From positions 1 to 64,000 of the forward strand of contig JAEINR010000002.1 in the NCBI GenBank assembly GCA_016342325.1: DNA of 64,000 bases. The letters are read 5' to 3'. Source of the DNA: Desulfobacterium sp. (lineage in GTDB: Bacteria; Desulfobacterota; Desulfobacteria; Desulfobacterales; Desulfobacteraceae). The stretch's first letter is position 1; every line of letters starts with the position of its first letter. A program made the translations under genes and the position numbers. A model generated the notes under the pieces. The model ran no database searches. It was not told where the DNA came from and saw nothing but the letters and a program-made list of their open reading frames with translations. Shown in pieces: positions 1-6,846 of this stretch.

Positions 1-829
1 TTCTAAGCCAATCAATCAAATTTTTCAGAATAGAGACATTTTTTTTAACTACAAAGATGACTGGCTCATTAAACTGGCTGATTTGTGCTCTGAGTTGAGT
101 TGCAATTTTTCTATCAAAATCCTGAGTGTTTGTAGTCAGAGGTACCGGTGAATGCCATGTTTTAGCGTCATAAAATTTTCCGACACCTGTTAATTTTTCG
201 TTAAGATTTGTTGATTTTAATTGCAGGGAACTGTCCAAACCGACAAATCCTTCATCAATACGTTCCTGTGTCTGGTCCCTTAGTGGATTTAATAATCCTG
301 CCAACACAATAATAACTTTGTAACCAGCATCAGCAGCTTTGCATATTACACCAATATAGTTTGCTGTTTTTCCTGATTGAACATGGCCTACACAAAGCCC
401 CTTCCTCTTCCATGCTCCCTTTTTTTTAGGGTTTTCAAGGTGGTCGAGGTTTTTATCGGTATCAAGATCCAGAACATTTATGACTTGACGATTGAACCCC
501 TTGTCAGGAAGAAGTCGTTTATAGCGTTCCCAATAGTAGCCGTCGATACCTTTACGTGCATCATCAAGCCACGGAGTATAACCTTCTGCTGAAATCAAGC
601 TTCCAGCTTCCATTCTGATATCAAACCTCGCCTCCAGCCGTTTGGTGATATATAGAATATCCTGATCTGAAATTATTTCGTCATAGTTTTGGTTATCCAC
701 CATCAGTCTGACAAAACTAATTATGTTCTTTCGATCTTGTTTTCCCCCATCAAGAATAATTGCAGTAGCGTCTTCAATCTTTTTTAAAAAATCAATCTTG
801 TCATTGGTTCTATTATAATAGTCCTTCAT
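1..829 (-). CDS. Z1-domain protein of a MORC/methyltransferase defence system (C-terminus off window)
   Basis: This reading frame runs from an ATG at 829 down to base 1 without a stop, so only about 276 N-terminal residues are visible. Around residues 148-157 it reads GHVQSGKTAN, the P-loop-like signature of Z1 domains, followed by a hydrophobic strand and the segment LLNPLRDQTQERIDEGF. Z1 proteins are helicase-like ATPases that occur beside MORC-type ATPases and DNA methyltransferases (the family association described by Iyer, Abhiman and Aravind, 2008). The start lies one base after the stop of the upstream ATPase gene, with AAAGGGA as ribosome site, so the two are cotranscribed. The exact biochemical role of Z1 is not established; a motor or nuclease-loading role is inference. 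Confidence 0.82.
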   Translation of the reverse strand, partial: MKDYYNRTNDKIDFLKKIEDATAIILDGGKQDRKNIISFVRLMVDNQNYDEIISDQDILYITKRLEARFDIRMEAGSLISAEGYTPWLDDARKGIDGYYWERYKRLLPDKGFNRQVINVLDLDTDKNLDHLENPKKKGAWKRKGLCVGHVQSGKTANYIGVICKAADAGYKVIIVLAGLLNPLRDQTQERIDEGFVGLDSSLQLKSTNLNEKLTGVGKFYDAKTWHSPVPLTTNTQDFDRKIATQLRAQISQFNEPVIFVVKKNVSILKNLIDWLR

Positions 830-830
830 G

Positions 831-2306
831 TTATAATCCCTTTTGCCGTAGCAGTTTTTCAACTTCTTGTGGGTAAGATGCGAAAGGATCAATAGATTTC
901 AACCGTTCTGATATCTCAATTTTAGGGATCTCGCTCCGAATCATATGATTTATAAACTTGTCCAGAATGGAGGAAAACTGTTTTTCATTGAATATCGGTT
1001 TACTGAGAGCTTCAGGTTCTTTTGCAACATCGCTGTAGAATAGTTCGGTCGGAAAGCTGCTTTCGAGCATGAAAATCAGATCTTTTAATTTCTGTCGTTC
1101 GTCTGGCTGCAGAGTTTCTTCAATTTGTACGATTAAAGGATGGCCTCGATTGATCTGATAGAATATTTTTCCTTCAGCTGCAGTCCTGGTCCAGCCGGGT
1201 GCTTTCACTGTATCAGACAGTTTCTGGCCTCTTTGACGGTACACTCTTTTGCCGGATGTTGCAATTTTATCGATTATTTGTTTCAGTTCATTTCTGATCG
1301 TTTCTGGAGGTGTCGCATTTGATTTTTTTACATCAATCTTCCAGAAATGGTCTAAAGAATTAGGAATATCAACCTGAACACGCAAAAGTTTTGTCAACTC
1401 TTCCTTTTTAATAAGCCTAAACCATGTCCCTTTGATAATAAGCCTTCGGTTTCTATATACATAAAATCCCTGGTTTTGCAGGTAACCACCTTCTCCAGAA
1501 TACTTTTCATATTCATCATGTGAGGTTTTGTTGTAATGTGGTAATACAAAAGGTTGTACTTTGACCGTCTCTCCTTCTACCAGTATGGCTTGCTCGGGTA
1601 ATTCCTGTGTGGCGTTATGTAAGGGGTTAAAAGGATTAAATGCAATAAGAGGATCATTGTTCAATGAAATATTAAGTCGTTTTTTTCCTCGACTTGGAGA
1701 TAAAAAACGATGGAATATTAATTCAAGATGTTCTCTGGCATGACCAAGAAGCGAATTTAATTTTTTTTCTAATCCGTCATAACGATCCAGTTTTCGCCAT
1801 AAAACAATGGTTCCTCGGTGTTGGATAAGAGGCAGCAGTCCGGCAATGTGTTTATCCTGTTGCATTTCTGAATTATCAAGGACTCTCAATTTCCAACCGC
1901 TGTCAGGGTCTTCTTCAATTAAGTCCAAATCCCATTCCTTGCTCGTCGACATTCCATCTTTATTGCTGATCAGGGTTAATTGACGGCATTGGGAGAATGA
2001 TGCTGTTTTTAAACCAAGCCCGAATCTGCCAAGATCGTTATTTTTTCTTTCTTCCAATGGGTTTTTGCTTCCGAGTCTCATGGCATCGGTTAGCTCAGCA
2101 GGAGTCATGCCATTCCCATCGTCTATAATCGCAAGCCATGGACTTCCATCATTCCATGCAAAATTGACATTGATTTTTTCTGCTCCGGCTGTAATAGAAT
2201 TGTCAATTACGTCAGCAATGGCCGATTCCATTGAATAACCGATATCGCGGAGAGACTGGATAAGAGCGGAAGGAGAAGGTCTAAGATTTAAGAAAATTTC
2301 ACTCAT
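831..2306 (-). CDS. MORC/MutL-like GHKL ATPase of restriction-type defence island
   Basis: A 491-residue protein with an N-terminal HATPase_c_3 fold. The GHKL motifs are clear: the N box DVIDNS (residues 32-37), the G1 box DDGNGM (62-67) and the G2 box GRFGLGLK (93-100). The rest is a MORC-like region with a lysine/arginine-rich middle (KRVYRQRGQK) and no recognisable nuclease motif. Proteins of this type are paired with Z1, Vsr and cytosine methyltransferase genes in restriction-like operons, where the ATPase is thought to clamp or loop DNA. Here it is followed after one base by the Z1 gene and lies about 1 kb from the divergent methyltransferase-Vsr gene. High A+T and separation from core genes suggest horizontal acquisition. 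Confidence 0.85.
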   Translation of the reverse strand: MSEIFLNLRPSPSALIQSLRDIGYSMESAIADVIDNSITAGAEKINVNFAWNDGSPWLAIIDDGNGMTPAELTDAMRLGSKNPLEERKNNDLGRFGLGLKTASFSQCRQLTLISNKDGMSTSKEWDLDLIEEDPDSGWKLRVLDNSEMQQDKHIAGLLPLIQHRGTIVLWRKLDRYDGLEKKLNSLLGHAREHLELIFHRFLSPSRGKKRLNISLNNDPLIAFNPFNPLHNATQELPEQAILVEGETVKVQPFVLPHYNKTSHDEYEKYSGEGGYLQNQGFYVYRNRRLIIKGTWFRLIKKEELTKLLRVQVDIPNSLDHFWKIDVKKSNATPPETIRNELKQIIDKIATSGKRVYRQRGQKLSDTVKAPGWTRTAAEGKIFYQINRGHPLIVQIEETLQPDERQKLKDLIFMLESSFPTELFYSDVAKEPEALSKPIFNEKQFSSILDKFINHMIRSEIPKIEISERLKSIDPFASYPQEVEKLLRQKGL

Positions 2307-3341
2307 TTATTTACTTGTGGCTTTGGCTGTTGTTCTATTCACCCGCCGTACCCTTTTTATGGACGTTTAAGATACGTTTGAAAAGAGTAATGGATTAAAT
2401 CGATTACCCACCAATGATTGTTGTCACCTCATTCATATTCCTTCAACTCTAACTCGCATATCATCCACTTTTGAATGGGTTGATAGTTAATCAATTGTAA
2501 ATTATAAACACCTATGAGCCTATACCAATAATAATAACCTCTGTAAAGGGGAGGGGGGACAAACTGGTATCTTTCCACTGAATAGATATTCTGGTCACAA
2601 AAATAATCGGTTGCTTACCTATTATTTGAAAAAAATCTATGGTGTTTCGTGAAAACTATTTTCTGGAAAATGGAATCTGCTTTACCACTCCGTATATGGT
2701 TTACAGGCTATCTTCAAATTTAGAAATCTTGATTTTAACAATTGGTTATTATATAAAAAGGTCGAACTTTTTTGTAAGGTTAGATTAGGAGCGGGTGAAT
2801 TTTACCAAAGAATTATATTGGTTTTTCGATGTTTTCGCGTTTTATAAATTAATAATTCAACCCGTTAATATGGAAAACAAGTATGATACAGTAGCGTATG
2901 CAACCGGAGTGACGATTGAATCTCTGTAGACTCACGGGGTTACCTTGGACACAACGGTGCCTATTTTATAGATAAACAGTATGGCAACTGGGGTAAAAAA
3001 TGAATGTCTTGATATCAGGTCGTATGGAGTTGCTTCTTAGATTGCAATTATAGAGTCCGTGGCATTATTATTCTATGAATAATGTTTAATTCAGTTCATG
3101 GTGCAGGAAGCAGGGCCTATCACCTTTGGGCAATGACGCTTTAAGACAGAGCAGTCGGAAAATGGAAATAGACGGATTCGGCAAAGACCGAATATCTTGC
3201 CAAAGGTGTACAGTCATGAAATTATAAAAAGCAGTGAAGACAGAATTTTATTCCTGTGAAGTATCGAACAGGAATAAGCATCTGCTGATGCAGGAAAAAG
3301 TTGCAAATGATTTATTTATGGAATTAGGATAAGAAAATATA
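2307..3341. other. 1 kb intergenic region with hairpins, no gene recognised
   Basis: This AT-rich stretch separates the two divergent halves of the defence island. I find no coding frame of credible length. Its right half carries several inverted repeats: 3063-3084 (CATTATT/AATAATG), an outer stem pairing 3121-3133 with 3197-3208 (CACCTTTGG(G)CAA/TTGCCAAAGGTG) that encloses ATTCGG/CCGAAT at 3176-3193, and a perfect 10-bp stem at 3248-3257/3268-3277. It probably holds the divergent promoters and either a structured leader or a small RNA. No ribosome site or known RNA family could be recognised. Confidence 0.5.
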
Positions 3342-5330
3342 GTGAAGATTCAGGTTGTTGATCTCTTTGCAGGCCCAGGGGGATTGGGAGAGGGTTTTGC
3401 ATCTCTATCAGACGAAGACGGTGAAAGTGTATTTGACATTGTTTTGTCCGTTGAAAGCAATCCTATTGCTCATAAAACCCTGGAATTGAGGAGTTTTTTC
3501 AGAAAATTTAAAAAATGTGAAGTTCCGGAAGAATATTATCAATATCTTCGAAAAAAAATCAGTCGTGATGAACTTTTTGAAAAATACCCTAAAGAGGCGG
3601 CAGCGGCACAGGTAGAAGCATGGTGCGAAACTCTTGGTAGTGGTGAAGAACTCAACACTAAAATGGATAAACGCGTAAGAAAGCTGACGGAAAGTTGTCA
3701 CGATAAATGGGTTCTTATTGGTGGACCTCCATGTCAGGCTTACTCGATAGTGGGGAGGTCTCGCCGAAAAAAAATAAAAGACTATATTCCAGAAGAAGAT
3801 GAAAGAAACTATCTTTACCGAGAATACTTACGGATTATAGCCGAACATCAACCTGCAGTTTTTATAATGGAAAACGTTAAAGGCATGCTCAGTTCCAGGC
3901 TCAATGGCGGTTCCATGTTTAAAAAAATACTTGAGGATCTAAAATGCCCTTCCGGGGCATTTGATAAAAAAGAAAAGGATTCTGGATGTAAGGGGGGAGG
4001 GGGAGAGTATGAGCTTTATTCCTTGGCAATTCCCTTTTCGGATATAGCCCAGAATGATGGTAAATATGCTCCGGCTGATTTTATTATTGAGTCTGAAAAG
4101 TACGGTGTGCCGCAGGCAAGACACCGAGTGATCCTACTTGGGGTGAAGAAGGGACTGACCCAACGTCACCCTGAAGTCATTAAAGAAGAAAGACCCGTTT
4201 GGACAGATCATGTCCTATCTGGTCTACCTCCCTTGCGGAGTGGGCTTTCTCGGGAAAAGGACAGTCTTGATCGCTGGAAAACTGTAATATTAGACAGCCT
4301 TGATCGTCACTGGCTCAATCATGGTCTCAGGCCAAAGGGAATTCCGGATTTAGAGGAAAATATCATGGCCGCTTTGGTTGATCTGGCAACCATAGATCTG
4401 AGTCGGGGAAATGAATTTGTTGAAGGGAAACTCAGTGTCAAAGATGAGCTTGCTTGGTGGTACCTGGATGACCGACTCGGTGGTGCTTGTAATCATGCAA
4501 CTCGAGGACATATGAACAGTGATCTCCACCGTTATATGTTTGCCGCCTGCTTTGCAGCTAAATTCAGGCGGTCGCCAAAGATACAGGAATTCCCTACTCG
4601 ACTGTTACCTAAACATAAAAGTGCAAAGAGTGGAGATTTTGATGACCGGTTCAGGGTACAGGCAGCTGGCAGTCCCTCAGCGACAATTACCAGTCATATT
4701 TCGAAGGATGGTCATTATTATATCCATTATGACCCTGTTCAGTGTCGTAGCTTGACGGTGCGTGAGGCAGCCCGGCTCCAGACCTTTCCTGATAATTATT
4801 TTTTTGAAGGAAGCAGGACCCAGCAGTATCTTCAGGTGGGTAATGCCGTACCACCTTTGTTGGCCAGAAAGATAGCCGTCATTGTTAAGAAGACCTTTGG
4901 TCTGATAAAGAACCGAAGTCACACGGATAAATTGTCCAAGGAAAAACGATCTTGGAATATGGCCCAGATAAAAAGTCGTGATACAAAGCCAGAGATGATC
5001 GTTCGCGGACTTCTGTTCAGAATGGGGCATGGTTTTCGGGTTCATCGACAAGATTTACCAGGTAGTCCAGACATTGTTCTATCTCGATTAAAAATGGTAA
5101 TTTTTGTTCATGGTTGTTACTGGCATCGACATGAGGGATGTCGGTATGCTTATAATCCAAAAAGTAGAGTCGATTTCTGGCAGACTAAATTCAGACGAAA
5201 TGTGGAGAGGGACAAAAAGGTTCAGCAGGCTTTAAAGGAGCTTGGCTGGCAGGTGGAGGTTATTTGGGAGTGTGAGACCAAGGACTGTGAACAGCTGGAA
5301 AAAAAGCTGATGAAAATTTTCGAAGGCTGA
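3342..5330 (+). CDS. C5-cytosine DNA methyltransferase fused to Vsr endonuclease
   Basis: A 662-residue fusion. Residues 1 to about 520 carry the C5-methyltransferase motifs in order: motif I DLFAGPGG (7-14), motif IV GGPPCQ with nucleophile C131, motif VI ENV (177-179), motif VIII QARHRV, motif IX REAARLQTFP and motif X GNAVPP. From about residue 528 it continues in frame as a complete very-short-patch-repair endonuclease, with the family marks KSRDTKPEM, the LPGSPDIV metal-site Asp segment, FVHGCYWHRH and the VIWECE end. In Dcm systems Vsr nicks T:G mismatches left by 5-methylcytosine deamination; here both activities share one chain. The GTG start at 3342 is preceded by AGGA. It is the modification arm of the island; the partner ATPase and Z1 genes are divergent. 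Confidence 0.92.
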   Translation: MKIQVVDLFAGPGGLGEGFASLSDEDGESVFDIVLSVESNPIAHKTLELRSFFRKFKKCEVPEEYYQYLRKKISRDELFEKYPKEAAAAQVEAWCETLGSGEELNTKMDKRVRKLTESCHDKWVLIGGPPCQAYSIVGRSRRKKIKDYIPEEDERNYLYREYLRIIAEHQPAVFIMENVKGMLSSRLNGGSMFKKILEDLKCPSGAFDKKEKDSGCKGGGGEYELYSLAIPFSDIAQNDGKYAPADFIIESEKYGVPQARHRVILLGVKKGLTQRHPEVIKEERPVWTDHVLSGLPPLRSGLSREKDSLDRWKTVILDSLDRHWLNHGLRPKGIPDLEENIMAALVDLATIDLSRGNEFVEGKLSVKDELAWWYLDDRLGGACNHATRGHMNSDLHRYMFAACFAAKFRRSPKIQEFPTRLLPKHKSAKSGDFDDRFRVQAAGSPSATITSHISKDGHYYIHYDPVQCRSLTVREAARLQTFPDNYFFEGSRTQQYLQVGNAVPPLLARKIAVIVKKTFGLIKNRSHTDKLSKEKRSWNMAQIKSRDTKPEMIVRGLLFRMGHGFRVHRQDLPGSPDIVLSRLKMVIFVHGCYWHRHEGCRYAYNPKSRVDFWQTKFRRNVERDKKVQQALKELGWQVEVIWECETKDCEQLEKKLMKIFEG

Positions 5331-6102: not shown

Positions 6103-6846
6103 ATGATCGATTTTAGAAAACTTGACCAACTCAAGCAGAAACTGGACTCTTTTCGTCCACTTCCGCGTGAAATTGTGGAAAACCTGCATGAAGATCTTGT
6201 GTTACGCTGGACCTATAATTCCAATGCCATTGAAGGCAATACGCTTACATTGAAAGAAACCAAGGTGGCATTGGAAGGCATCACTGTCGGTGGGAAAACC
6301 ATAAGGGAACATTTTGAAGCCATCAATCACAGGGATGCGATTTTCTTTGTTGAAGAATTGGTCAAAAAGAGAGATGGCTTGTCTGAGTGGGATATAAAAT
6401 CCATCCATCAGCTTATTTTGAAACAGATTGATGACAAGAATGCCGGTGTTTACCGGAATGTAAATGTCACCATTTCCGGTGCGGATCATGTCCCGCCGGA
6501 TACCTTTCAGGTTAAGGACGAGATGGGTAAATTTATAGAATGGTACAAGAATGATGGTCAAAAACTGCATCCGGTTGAGCGCGCTGGGCGTGTGCATGCA
6601 GATTGTGTCAAGATTCATCCCTTTGTTGATGGAAACGGGCGCACTTCCCGTCTTTTGATGAACCTTGAATTGATGAAAGACGGTTTTCCCCCTGTTGTTC
6701 TGCCTGTTGAAAAACGGCTGGAATATTACGAGGCTTTGGATAAGGCTCACACCGTGGGTGACTACACGCCATTTCTGATTTTGGTTGCAGCTACAGTTGA
6801 AAGAAGTTTTAATCCATATTGGCATGCCTTGGGCGTGAACGGATAA
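6103..6846 (+). CDS. Fic family protein (AMPylator-type) with N-terminal inhibitory motif
   Basis: A 247-residue Fic-fold protein. The catalytic loop HPFVDGNGR lies at residues 172-180, a full match to HPFx(D/E)GNGR, so nucleotidyl transfer should be possible. The inhibitory-helix motif (S/T)xxxE(G/N) appears at residues 40-45 (SNAIEG), N-terminal to the Fic core, which defines class II Fic proteins that keep themselves inactive through the glutamate. There is no C-terminal winged helix, so it is shorter than the usual 350-380 residue class II members. A TATAAT box at 6064-6069 suggests its own promoter. The target protein cannot be predicted. It stands alone between the defence island and a nuclease gene. 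Confidence 0.9.
   Translation: MIDFRKLDQLKQKLDSFRPLPREIVENLHEDLVLRWTYNSNAIEGNTLTLKETKVALEGITVGGKTIREHFEAINHRDAIFFVEELVKKRDGLSEWDIKSIHQLILKQIDDKNAGVYRNVNVTISGADHVPPDTFQVKDEMGKFIEWYKNDGQKLHPVERAGRVHADCVKIHPFVDGNGRTSRLLMNLELMKDGFPPVVLPVEKRLEYYEALDKAHTVGDYTPFLILVAATVERSFNPYWHALGVNG

Follow-up and report, generated by a model that had tools for sequence, protein, structure and literature searches.

Why should a Vsr endonuclease be carried in one polypeptide with a DNA methyltransferase, and does it repair methylated sites there or attack foreign DNA? The question is raised by the first 5,330 bases of the window, as we call the whole 64,000-nucleotide stretch of Desulfobacterium sp. DNA analysed here. 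The window covers the leading 64 kb of contig C182 (202 kb), which belongs to a 6.67-Mb draft genome of 205 contigs, and its position 1 is the contig end. At that end, a C5-cytosine methyltransferase fused to Vsr lies beside genes for a MORC-type GHKL ATPase and a Z1 protein. The explanation we favour, at a probability of roughly two in three, is an anti-phage cluster of the Mza or type 3 MORC kind that is coupled to methylation and was probably acquired horizontally, and in which a repair-type Vsr was fused to the methyltransferase. We infer acquisition, methylation, restriction and repair from the sequence. Such a fusion would give a defence cluster a single molecule that combines methylation with mismatch repair. 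It also makes the gene a single-gene test of whether Vsr proteins near defence systems serve the repair of methylated sites or attack.

The fused chain and the Mza-like operon

The features at the contig end were as follows.

2-892, minus strand: 5' part of a gene for a Z1 superfamily 2 (SF2) ATPase, MzaC homologue; runs off the contig edge; likely start ATG at 829
831-2306, minus strand: MORC-type GHKL ATPase, MzaB homologue, 491 amino acids (PADLOC MzaB 2.6e-87; Pfam HATPase_c_3 1.1e-33)
2307-3341, no strand: intergenic region of 1,035 bp between the divergent units; frames between stops of at most 64 codons
3342-4901, plus strand: C5-cytosine DNA methyltransferase domain, residues 1-520 (Pfam PF00145 1.4e-45; PADLOC DrmMII PDLC02649 6.1e-98)
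4902-4979, plus strand: linker, residues 521-546, at the place of the methyltransferase stop and vsr start of relatives, reaching into the N-terminal arm of Vsr (predicted local distance difference test, pLDDT, <50; codon comparison)
4923-5330, plus strand: Vsr endonuclease domain, C-terminal and in frame (Pfam PF03852 1.2e-27; TIGR00632 143.6 bits)

A first-pass annotation, made from the letters alone, had read a cytosine methyltransferase fused in frame to Vsr. This reading held, as positions 3342-5330 of the plus strand form one uninterrupted frame of 662 amino acids, Pfam places DNA_methylase and Vsr in the same chain, and the catalytic motifs of both parts are present. In the methyltransferase part we found what we take to be motifs I, IV (PPCQ), VI (ENV), VIII, IX and X, and its best PADLOC model was DrmMII of DISARM. 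The TIGR00632 score of the Vsr domain exceeded the cut-off of 97.85 bits. The domain aligned with E. coli Vsr (1cw0, 7.2e-30) and keeps PD, HGC.WH.H, the next Cys and WEC, presumably the catalytic and zinc residues. Val stands in place of the Thr before HGC; 118 relatives were compared by pattern, of which 40 went unmatched and 73 of the other 78 also have Val. We drew on a structure model of only moderate quality (mean pLDDT 73, predicted template-modelling score 0.67, 24 rows) for two points alone, the flexibility of the linker and the match to Vsr. Foldseek matched the model to 1cw0_A with an E-value of 2.3e-9 and a target template-modelling score of 0.71, at a poor root-mean-square deviation of 13.0, and most other matches were methyltransferases. 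The order of the two domains is that of E. coli Dcm and Vsr, and the Vsr part can be aligned with E. coli Vsr through the catalytic region. According to the accessible text of PMC12907096, however, Dcm and Vsr are separate genes of one operon, whereas here they form one chain in a defence cluster.

The same annotation had placed a MORC-like GHKL ATPase and a Z1 protein on one strand, with further genes probably to the left, and both expectations were borne out. The only other match to window positions 1-5330 in the genome itself (E ≤ 0.001) was the first 77 bases of contig C190 (locus L003), on the opposite strand, which overlap the window's first 77 bases. When the contigs were joined across this overlap, a Z1 protein of 932 amino acids without internal stops was obtained. 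The gene continues on C190 as L003:1-1984, and the Z1 domain itself (PF10593, 1.3e-82) lies there, outside the window. The two parts cover consecutive stretches of the PADLOC MzaC profile: 58-265 in the window (1.2e-48) and 245-794 on C190 (2.8e-105). Downstream of the Z1 part follow a DUF4420 gene (Pfam 6.2e-64; MzaD-like) and an AIPR gene (Pfam 2.7e-107; MzaE-like), with overlapping gene ends. Homologues of MzaB, C, D and E are thus present together, with PADLOC matches to all four. No match to MzaA was found among the proteins scanned, and the presence of an MzaA model in the library was not checked. The gene set recurs, since 49 of the methyltransferase loci fetched hold all four MzaB-E homologues.

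MORC proteins were defined by the motif GhXhhpXXRhl, and the helicases of type 3 MORC operons carry DThhQXuRhFG (Iyer, Abhiman and Aravind 2008, PMC2292703). The GHKL ATPase carries the corresponding S5 motif, GFYVYRNRRLI, at residue 280, and a slightly looser S5 pattern fits 61 of 64 MzaB relatives. The SF2 helicase motif appears as DTLMQMGRWFG at residue 593 of the joined Z1 protein, and 51 of 60 relatives fit. The S5 motif supports the MORC assignment of the first-pass annotation, and the gene set is, as stated there, known from surveys of MORC-type systems. The DUF4420 protein, which Pfam describes as "Putative PD-(D/E)XK", is presumably the restriction-endonuclease-fold (RE-fold) family of Iyer; its D and ExK were located by pattern, the first E lying outside that check. 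Type 3 MORC operons share with this cluster the MORC GHKL ATPase, a distinct SF2 helicase and, presumably, the RE-fold protein, and methylase and VSR genes are frequent nearby; in its accessible text, PMC2292703 speaks of methylase and VSR genes and does not mention a fusion of the two. The accessible part of PMC9523054 describes a Type II putative defence system with Z1, a PD-(D/E)XK protein, a cytosine methyltransferase, AIPR and a MORC nearby, at about 20% identity to mzaBCDE. This is the gene set of our cluster, matched by description and not by sequence comparison, and the text writes DUF4220 where the cluster has DUF4420.

The MzaB-like protein is a GHKL/MORC protein with weak similarity to MutL. 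As a side observation, its N box (in 831-2306) has an Asp, where the MutL N box carries a catalytic Glu. Of 64 MzaB relatives, 51 share the Asp and the other 13 did not fit the pattern; by this comparison it looks like a family trait.

With the mzaABCDE system, reportedly described by Gao et al. in 2020, the cluster has in common the MzaB, C, D and E homologues in one operon. It differs in the methyltransferase-Vsr gene alongside and in its MzaB, D and E homologues, which score far under the NCBIfam cut-offs. Because of these scores it was not filed as Mza outright. The first-pass annotation had left these closer parallels (mzaBCDE, the Type II system and a DISARM-type methyltransferase) unnamed.

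Rarity and origin of the fusion

The fusion had been called uncommon in the first-pass annotation, and our scans agree. Among loci L001-L199, 192 had a methyltransferase match and 132 a Vsr match. Frames with both domains, each at its own profile threshold, were found in L001 and L004 only, both of which are the window, so that no second fusion of this methyltransferase family was found in these loci. The loci were collected with an alignment whose first row was the fused protein, which may favour loci with a nearby Vsr. They include the best 80 of at least 574 confirmed relatives in the genome-contig scan and 75 loci from the viral scan; a second fusion could lie outside them. Some are near-duplicates (L039 and L084 seem to be one contig, and several IMG/VR loci are alike). 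Where the methyltransferase scored above 300 bits (152 loci, leaving out L001-L004 and ten short versions that were re-fetched at full length), Vsr lay downstream in 30, upstream in 14, on the opposite strand in 43 (three of them more than 600 bp away) and far off in 6, and it was absent from 59.

Fusions to distant methyltransferases would be missed by these profile thresholds and were covered, for 395 genomes of one phylum, by a search for the Vsr family. This gave 95 matches in 79 genomes, five of them in frames of more than 500 amino acids, namely the window and genomes G025, G102, G330 and G386. A frame of 609 amino acids reported around the Vsr of G332 was discarded, as the Vsr frame there has 152 amino acids. 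Within the order, matches were obtained in 40 of 291 genomes; apart from the window, the full-length ones were G606 and G453, both of which contain a stop. In the 40 plasmid records with a match, the two genes are apart at the one place where 80% or more of the query is covered, and none of 11 phage records covers 80% of it. A limited literature search found no report of a methyltransferase-Vsr fusion in the texts accessible to it. Within the sequences covered, the fusion in this order and in this methyltransferase family is rare; the gene set is already in print, and the fusion is the new part.

The other four of these long frames are a recurring fusion with Vsr first and a C5-methyltransferase second, in four of the 395 genomes (L042:7266-8993, L234:5828-7834, L236:7472-9109, and L235 from about 1771 to the low end). 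These chains resemble the window's in holding both domains (by Pfam in three, by eye in G386). They differ in where the match begins on the Vsr profile, at position 9-10 versus 1 in the window's chain, and in the kind of methyltransferase, which matched the family profile with 23-28 bits or, in G102, not at all.

In a tree of 124 methyltransferase sequences, the fused one was placed in a clade of five members (support 0.997). The other four have a Vsr frame downstream and separate from the methyltransferase, as do all ten others of a wider clade (support 0.884); an intermediate clade had a support of 0.815. By this phylogeny, the fusion looks derived from two neighbouring genes. One near relative (G339, L036:13059-13253) has behind its methyltransferase a Vsr frame of 65 codons that scored 43 bits, a partial or broken vsr.

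Pairs of methyltransferase and vsr genes in the same frame, with a single stop between them, were found in G273, G377, G606, G453 and L045. We compared the window with two of them in a codon register counted without gaps from the conserved GNAVPP. In the window, CGA (Arg) stands at the place of the G377 stop and AGT (Ser) at that of the G606 stop. ACG (Thr) takes the place of the vsr start in both comparisons (GTG in G377, ATG in G606). Each of these signals is thus replaced in register by a sense codon, and the window has lost the two of them. As same-frame pairs are the minority, a same-frame ancestor is likely but not certain. The simplest origin of the fusion would be a G606-like pair in which the stop of the methyltransferase and the start codon of vsr were lost.

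The replaced codons also bear on whether two genes were joined by a base error in assembly or sequencing. A frameshift artefact had been named in the first-pass annotation as what would refute the fusion. The case is single, in a draft genome of 205 contigs; shortly before the junction there is a TGATAA, though out of frame, and several near relatives carry methyltransferase and vsr in different frames. One base error, however, would leave either the stop or the start of a G606-like pair in place, and both are replaced; the junction is also without a long homopolymer. We consider an artefact very unlikely.

The fused gene is divergent from the MzaB-like gene. As to where the methyltransferase lies relative to the four Mza genes, the 49 loci that hold all of them have it on the same strand nearer MzaB in 26, on the opposite strand nearer MzaE in 18, on the same strand nearer MzaE in 3 and on the opposite strand nearer MzaB in 2. 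The last of these, the least common, is the window's layout. Because two of the nearest relatives (L036, L047) have the order B-C-D-E-methyltransferase-Vsr on one strand, a rearrangement is likely.

Repair or attack

As we picture the cluster, the methyltransferase domain would mark a site of the host DNA with 5-methylcytosine, and the divergent operon of MORC GHKL ATPase, Z1 SF2 ATPase, DUF4420 PD-(D/E)XK protein and AIPR would attack DNA without the mark. Deamination of 5-methylcytosine at a marked site would give a T:G mismatch, which the Vsr domain would nick, and very-short-patch repair would restore the C. The fusion would fix nuclease and methyltransferase at 1:1.

We counted how often Vsr lies near the methyltransferase, that is, within 600 bp of it, in loci fetched with 6 kb or more on each side. 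Where three or four Mza genes are present, 27 of 38 loci had Vsr that near, versus 14 of 19 loci without Mza genes. When all 49 loci with four Mza genes were counted, Vsr was near in 36, further off in 5 and without a match in the fetched stretch in 8, two of which (L067, L097) have short flanks. The same methyltransferase-Vsr pair also stands beside DISARM DrmA/DrmB in L034 and L048. Because Vsr mostly accompanies the methyltransferase, whatever the effector set, these counts favour, without proving, a Vsr that serves as repair partner for deaminated 5-methylcytosine over one that is a core restriction nuclease. The survey also suggests that defence systems exchange self-marking modules, as one methyltransferase-Vsr module is found beside Mza-like or DISARM genes depending on the genome. 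The cluster itself was not filed as DISARM, with which it shares the DrmMII-type methyltransferase, as no protein scanned in it matched DrmA or DrmB. A separate case is L255:1-12240, from a genome of the window's family, where a DrmE_C protein, a NERD-helicase, a large helicase and an MZB protein are followed by AIPR (MzaE-like), methyltransferase and vsr, possibly a DISARM-Mza hybrid.

The opposite answer is that Vsr is a restriction effector: the MutL-related MORC ATPase would activate nicking of unmodified foreign DNA, and the fusion would deliver the nickase to the methyltransferase's site. The weak MutL similarity of the MzaB-like GHKL/MORC protein fits this, and accessible sections of two papers lend it precedent, as the MutL of Neisseria gonorrhoeae binds and stimulates Vsr (PMC6116569) and Vsr-type domains are the predicted nucleases of YprA-family immune helicases (PMC12458937). 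Some full clusters, moreover, have Vsr apart from the methyltransferase, as in L038, where it adjoins MzaE, 7 kb away. Yet 8 of the 49 full loci have no Vsr in the fetched stretch and 5 have it more than 600 bp from the methyltransferase, while Vsr is about equally common in loci without Mza genes. The cluster already contains a PD-(D/E)XK protein, and Caulobacter VsrA gave a negative two-hybrid result for MutL binding, as far as the accessible text of PMC12907096 goes. We regard the effector role as doubtful.

A further reading is a stabilising role, in which Vsr would make loss of the methyltransferase costly and so help to keep the modification gene and hence the cluster. In Caulobacter, the drop in fitness and the SOS response that follow deletion of a methyltransferase are vsrA-dependent (PMC12907096). 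A fusion, however, hampers the loss of one part alone, so that the effect would end on most losses, and a second fused copy was not found among the loci scanned. This role seems to us rather improbable. It is a long shot that the chain is a methylate-or-nick enzyme, which would either modify its site or, on a cue from the MORC ATPase, nick foreign DNA there and so load the Z1 helicase and the DUF4420 nuclease, reusing a MutL-like/Vsr repair pair. If true, a repair nickase would have been turned into a discriminator of self.

Several observations weigh against a repair-type Vsr fused within a Mza-like cluster, as we favour it. Vsr was near the methyltransferase in none of the five loci with one or two Mza genes, and L038 indicates that it does not always go with the methyltransferase. 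A possible internal TTG start could still yield free Vsr. Same-frame pairs are a minority (7 of the 30 downstream Vsr genes), G606 being alone with this arrangement among the four nearest relatives. For the fusion there is a single instance, from a draft assembly. None of the NCBIfam MZA equivalog cut-offs was reached by MzaB (355 of 850 bits), MzaD (114 of 420) or MzaE (378 of 1050); MzaC, for which the C190 part alone was scored, had 411 against a cut-off of 1500.

Intergenic gap and surroundings

The 1,035-bp gap between the divergent units (2307-3341) gave no sign of a further feature. A hidden gene or RNA was considered; its frames are short, though these small frames were not searched against protein families, and no Rfam match reached the gathering score. 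The gap sequence found itself alone in a search of its own genome. Promoter-like sites were about as frequent as in shuffled sequence (4 versus 4.3); terminator-like sites were a little more frequent (2 versus 1.0).

The G+C content was 37-46% in the cluster, 44-51% in the adjoining helicase and recombinase genes and mostly 52-58% further out. Because the cluster lies below its flanks, as expected for an acquired island, and adjoins recombinase genes, it was probably acquired horizontally.

Beyond the AIPR gene, on the other strand, L003:4977-12934 holds a RecD-like helicase (HHH_RecD2 domain), genes for two small proteins and, in a row with them, three large genes of recombinase type. Pfam identifies two of the three as phage integrases. 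In NCBIfam, one recombinase-type gene matches integrase_1 at 613 bits, and another had a weak match, under the cut-off, to GmtY of the gamma-mobile-trio. The third large gene had no Pfam, PADLOC or NCBIfam match and was called a recombinase by eye. This row of genes is possibly a mobile element that carries the Mza-like cluster. On the window's side, a Fic/DOC family protein (6103-6846; PADLOC SoFic 2.7e-32) lies between the cluster and the flank of higher G+C content.

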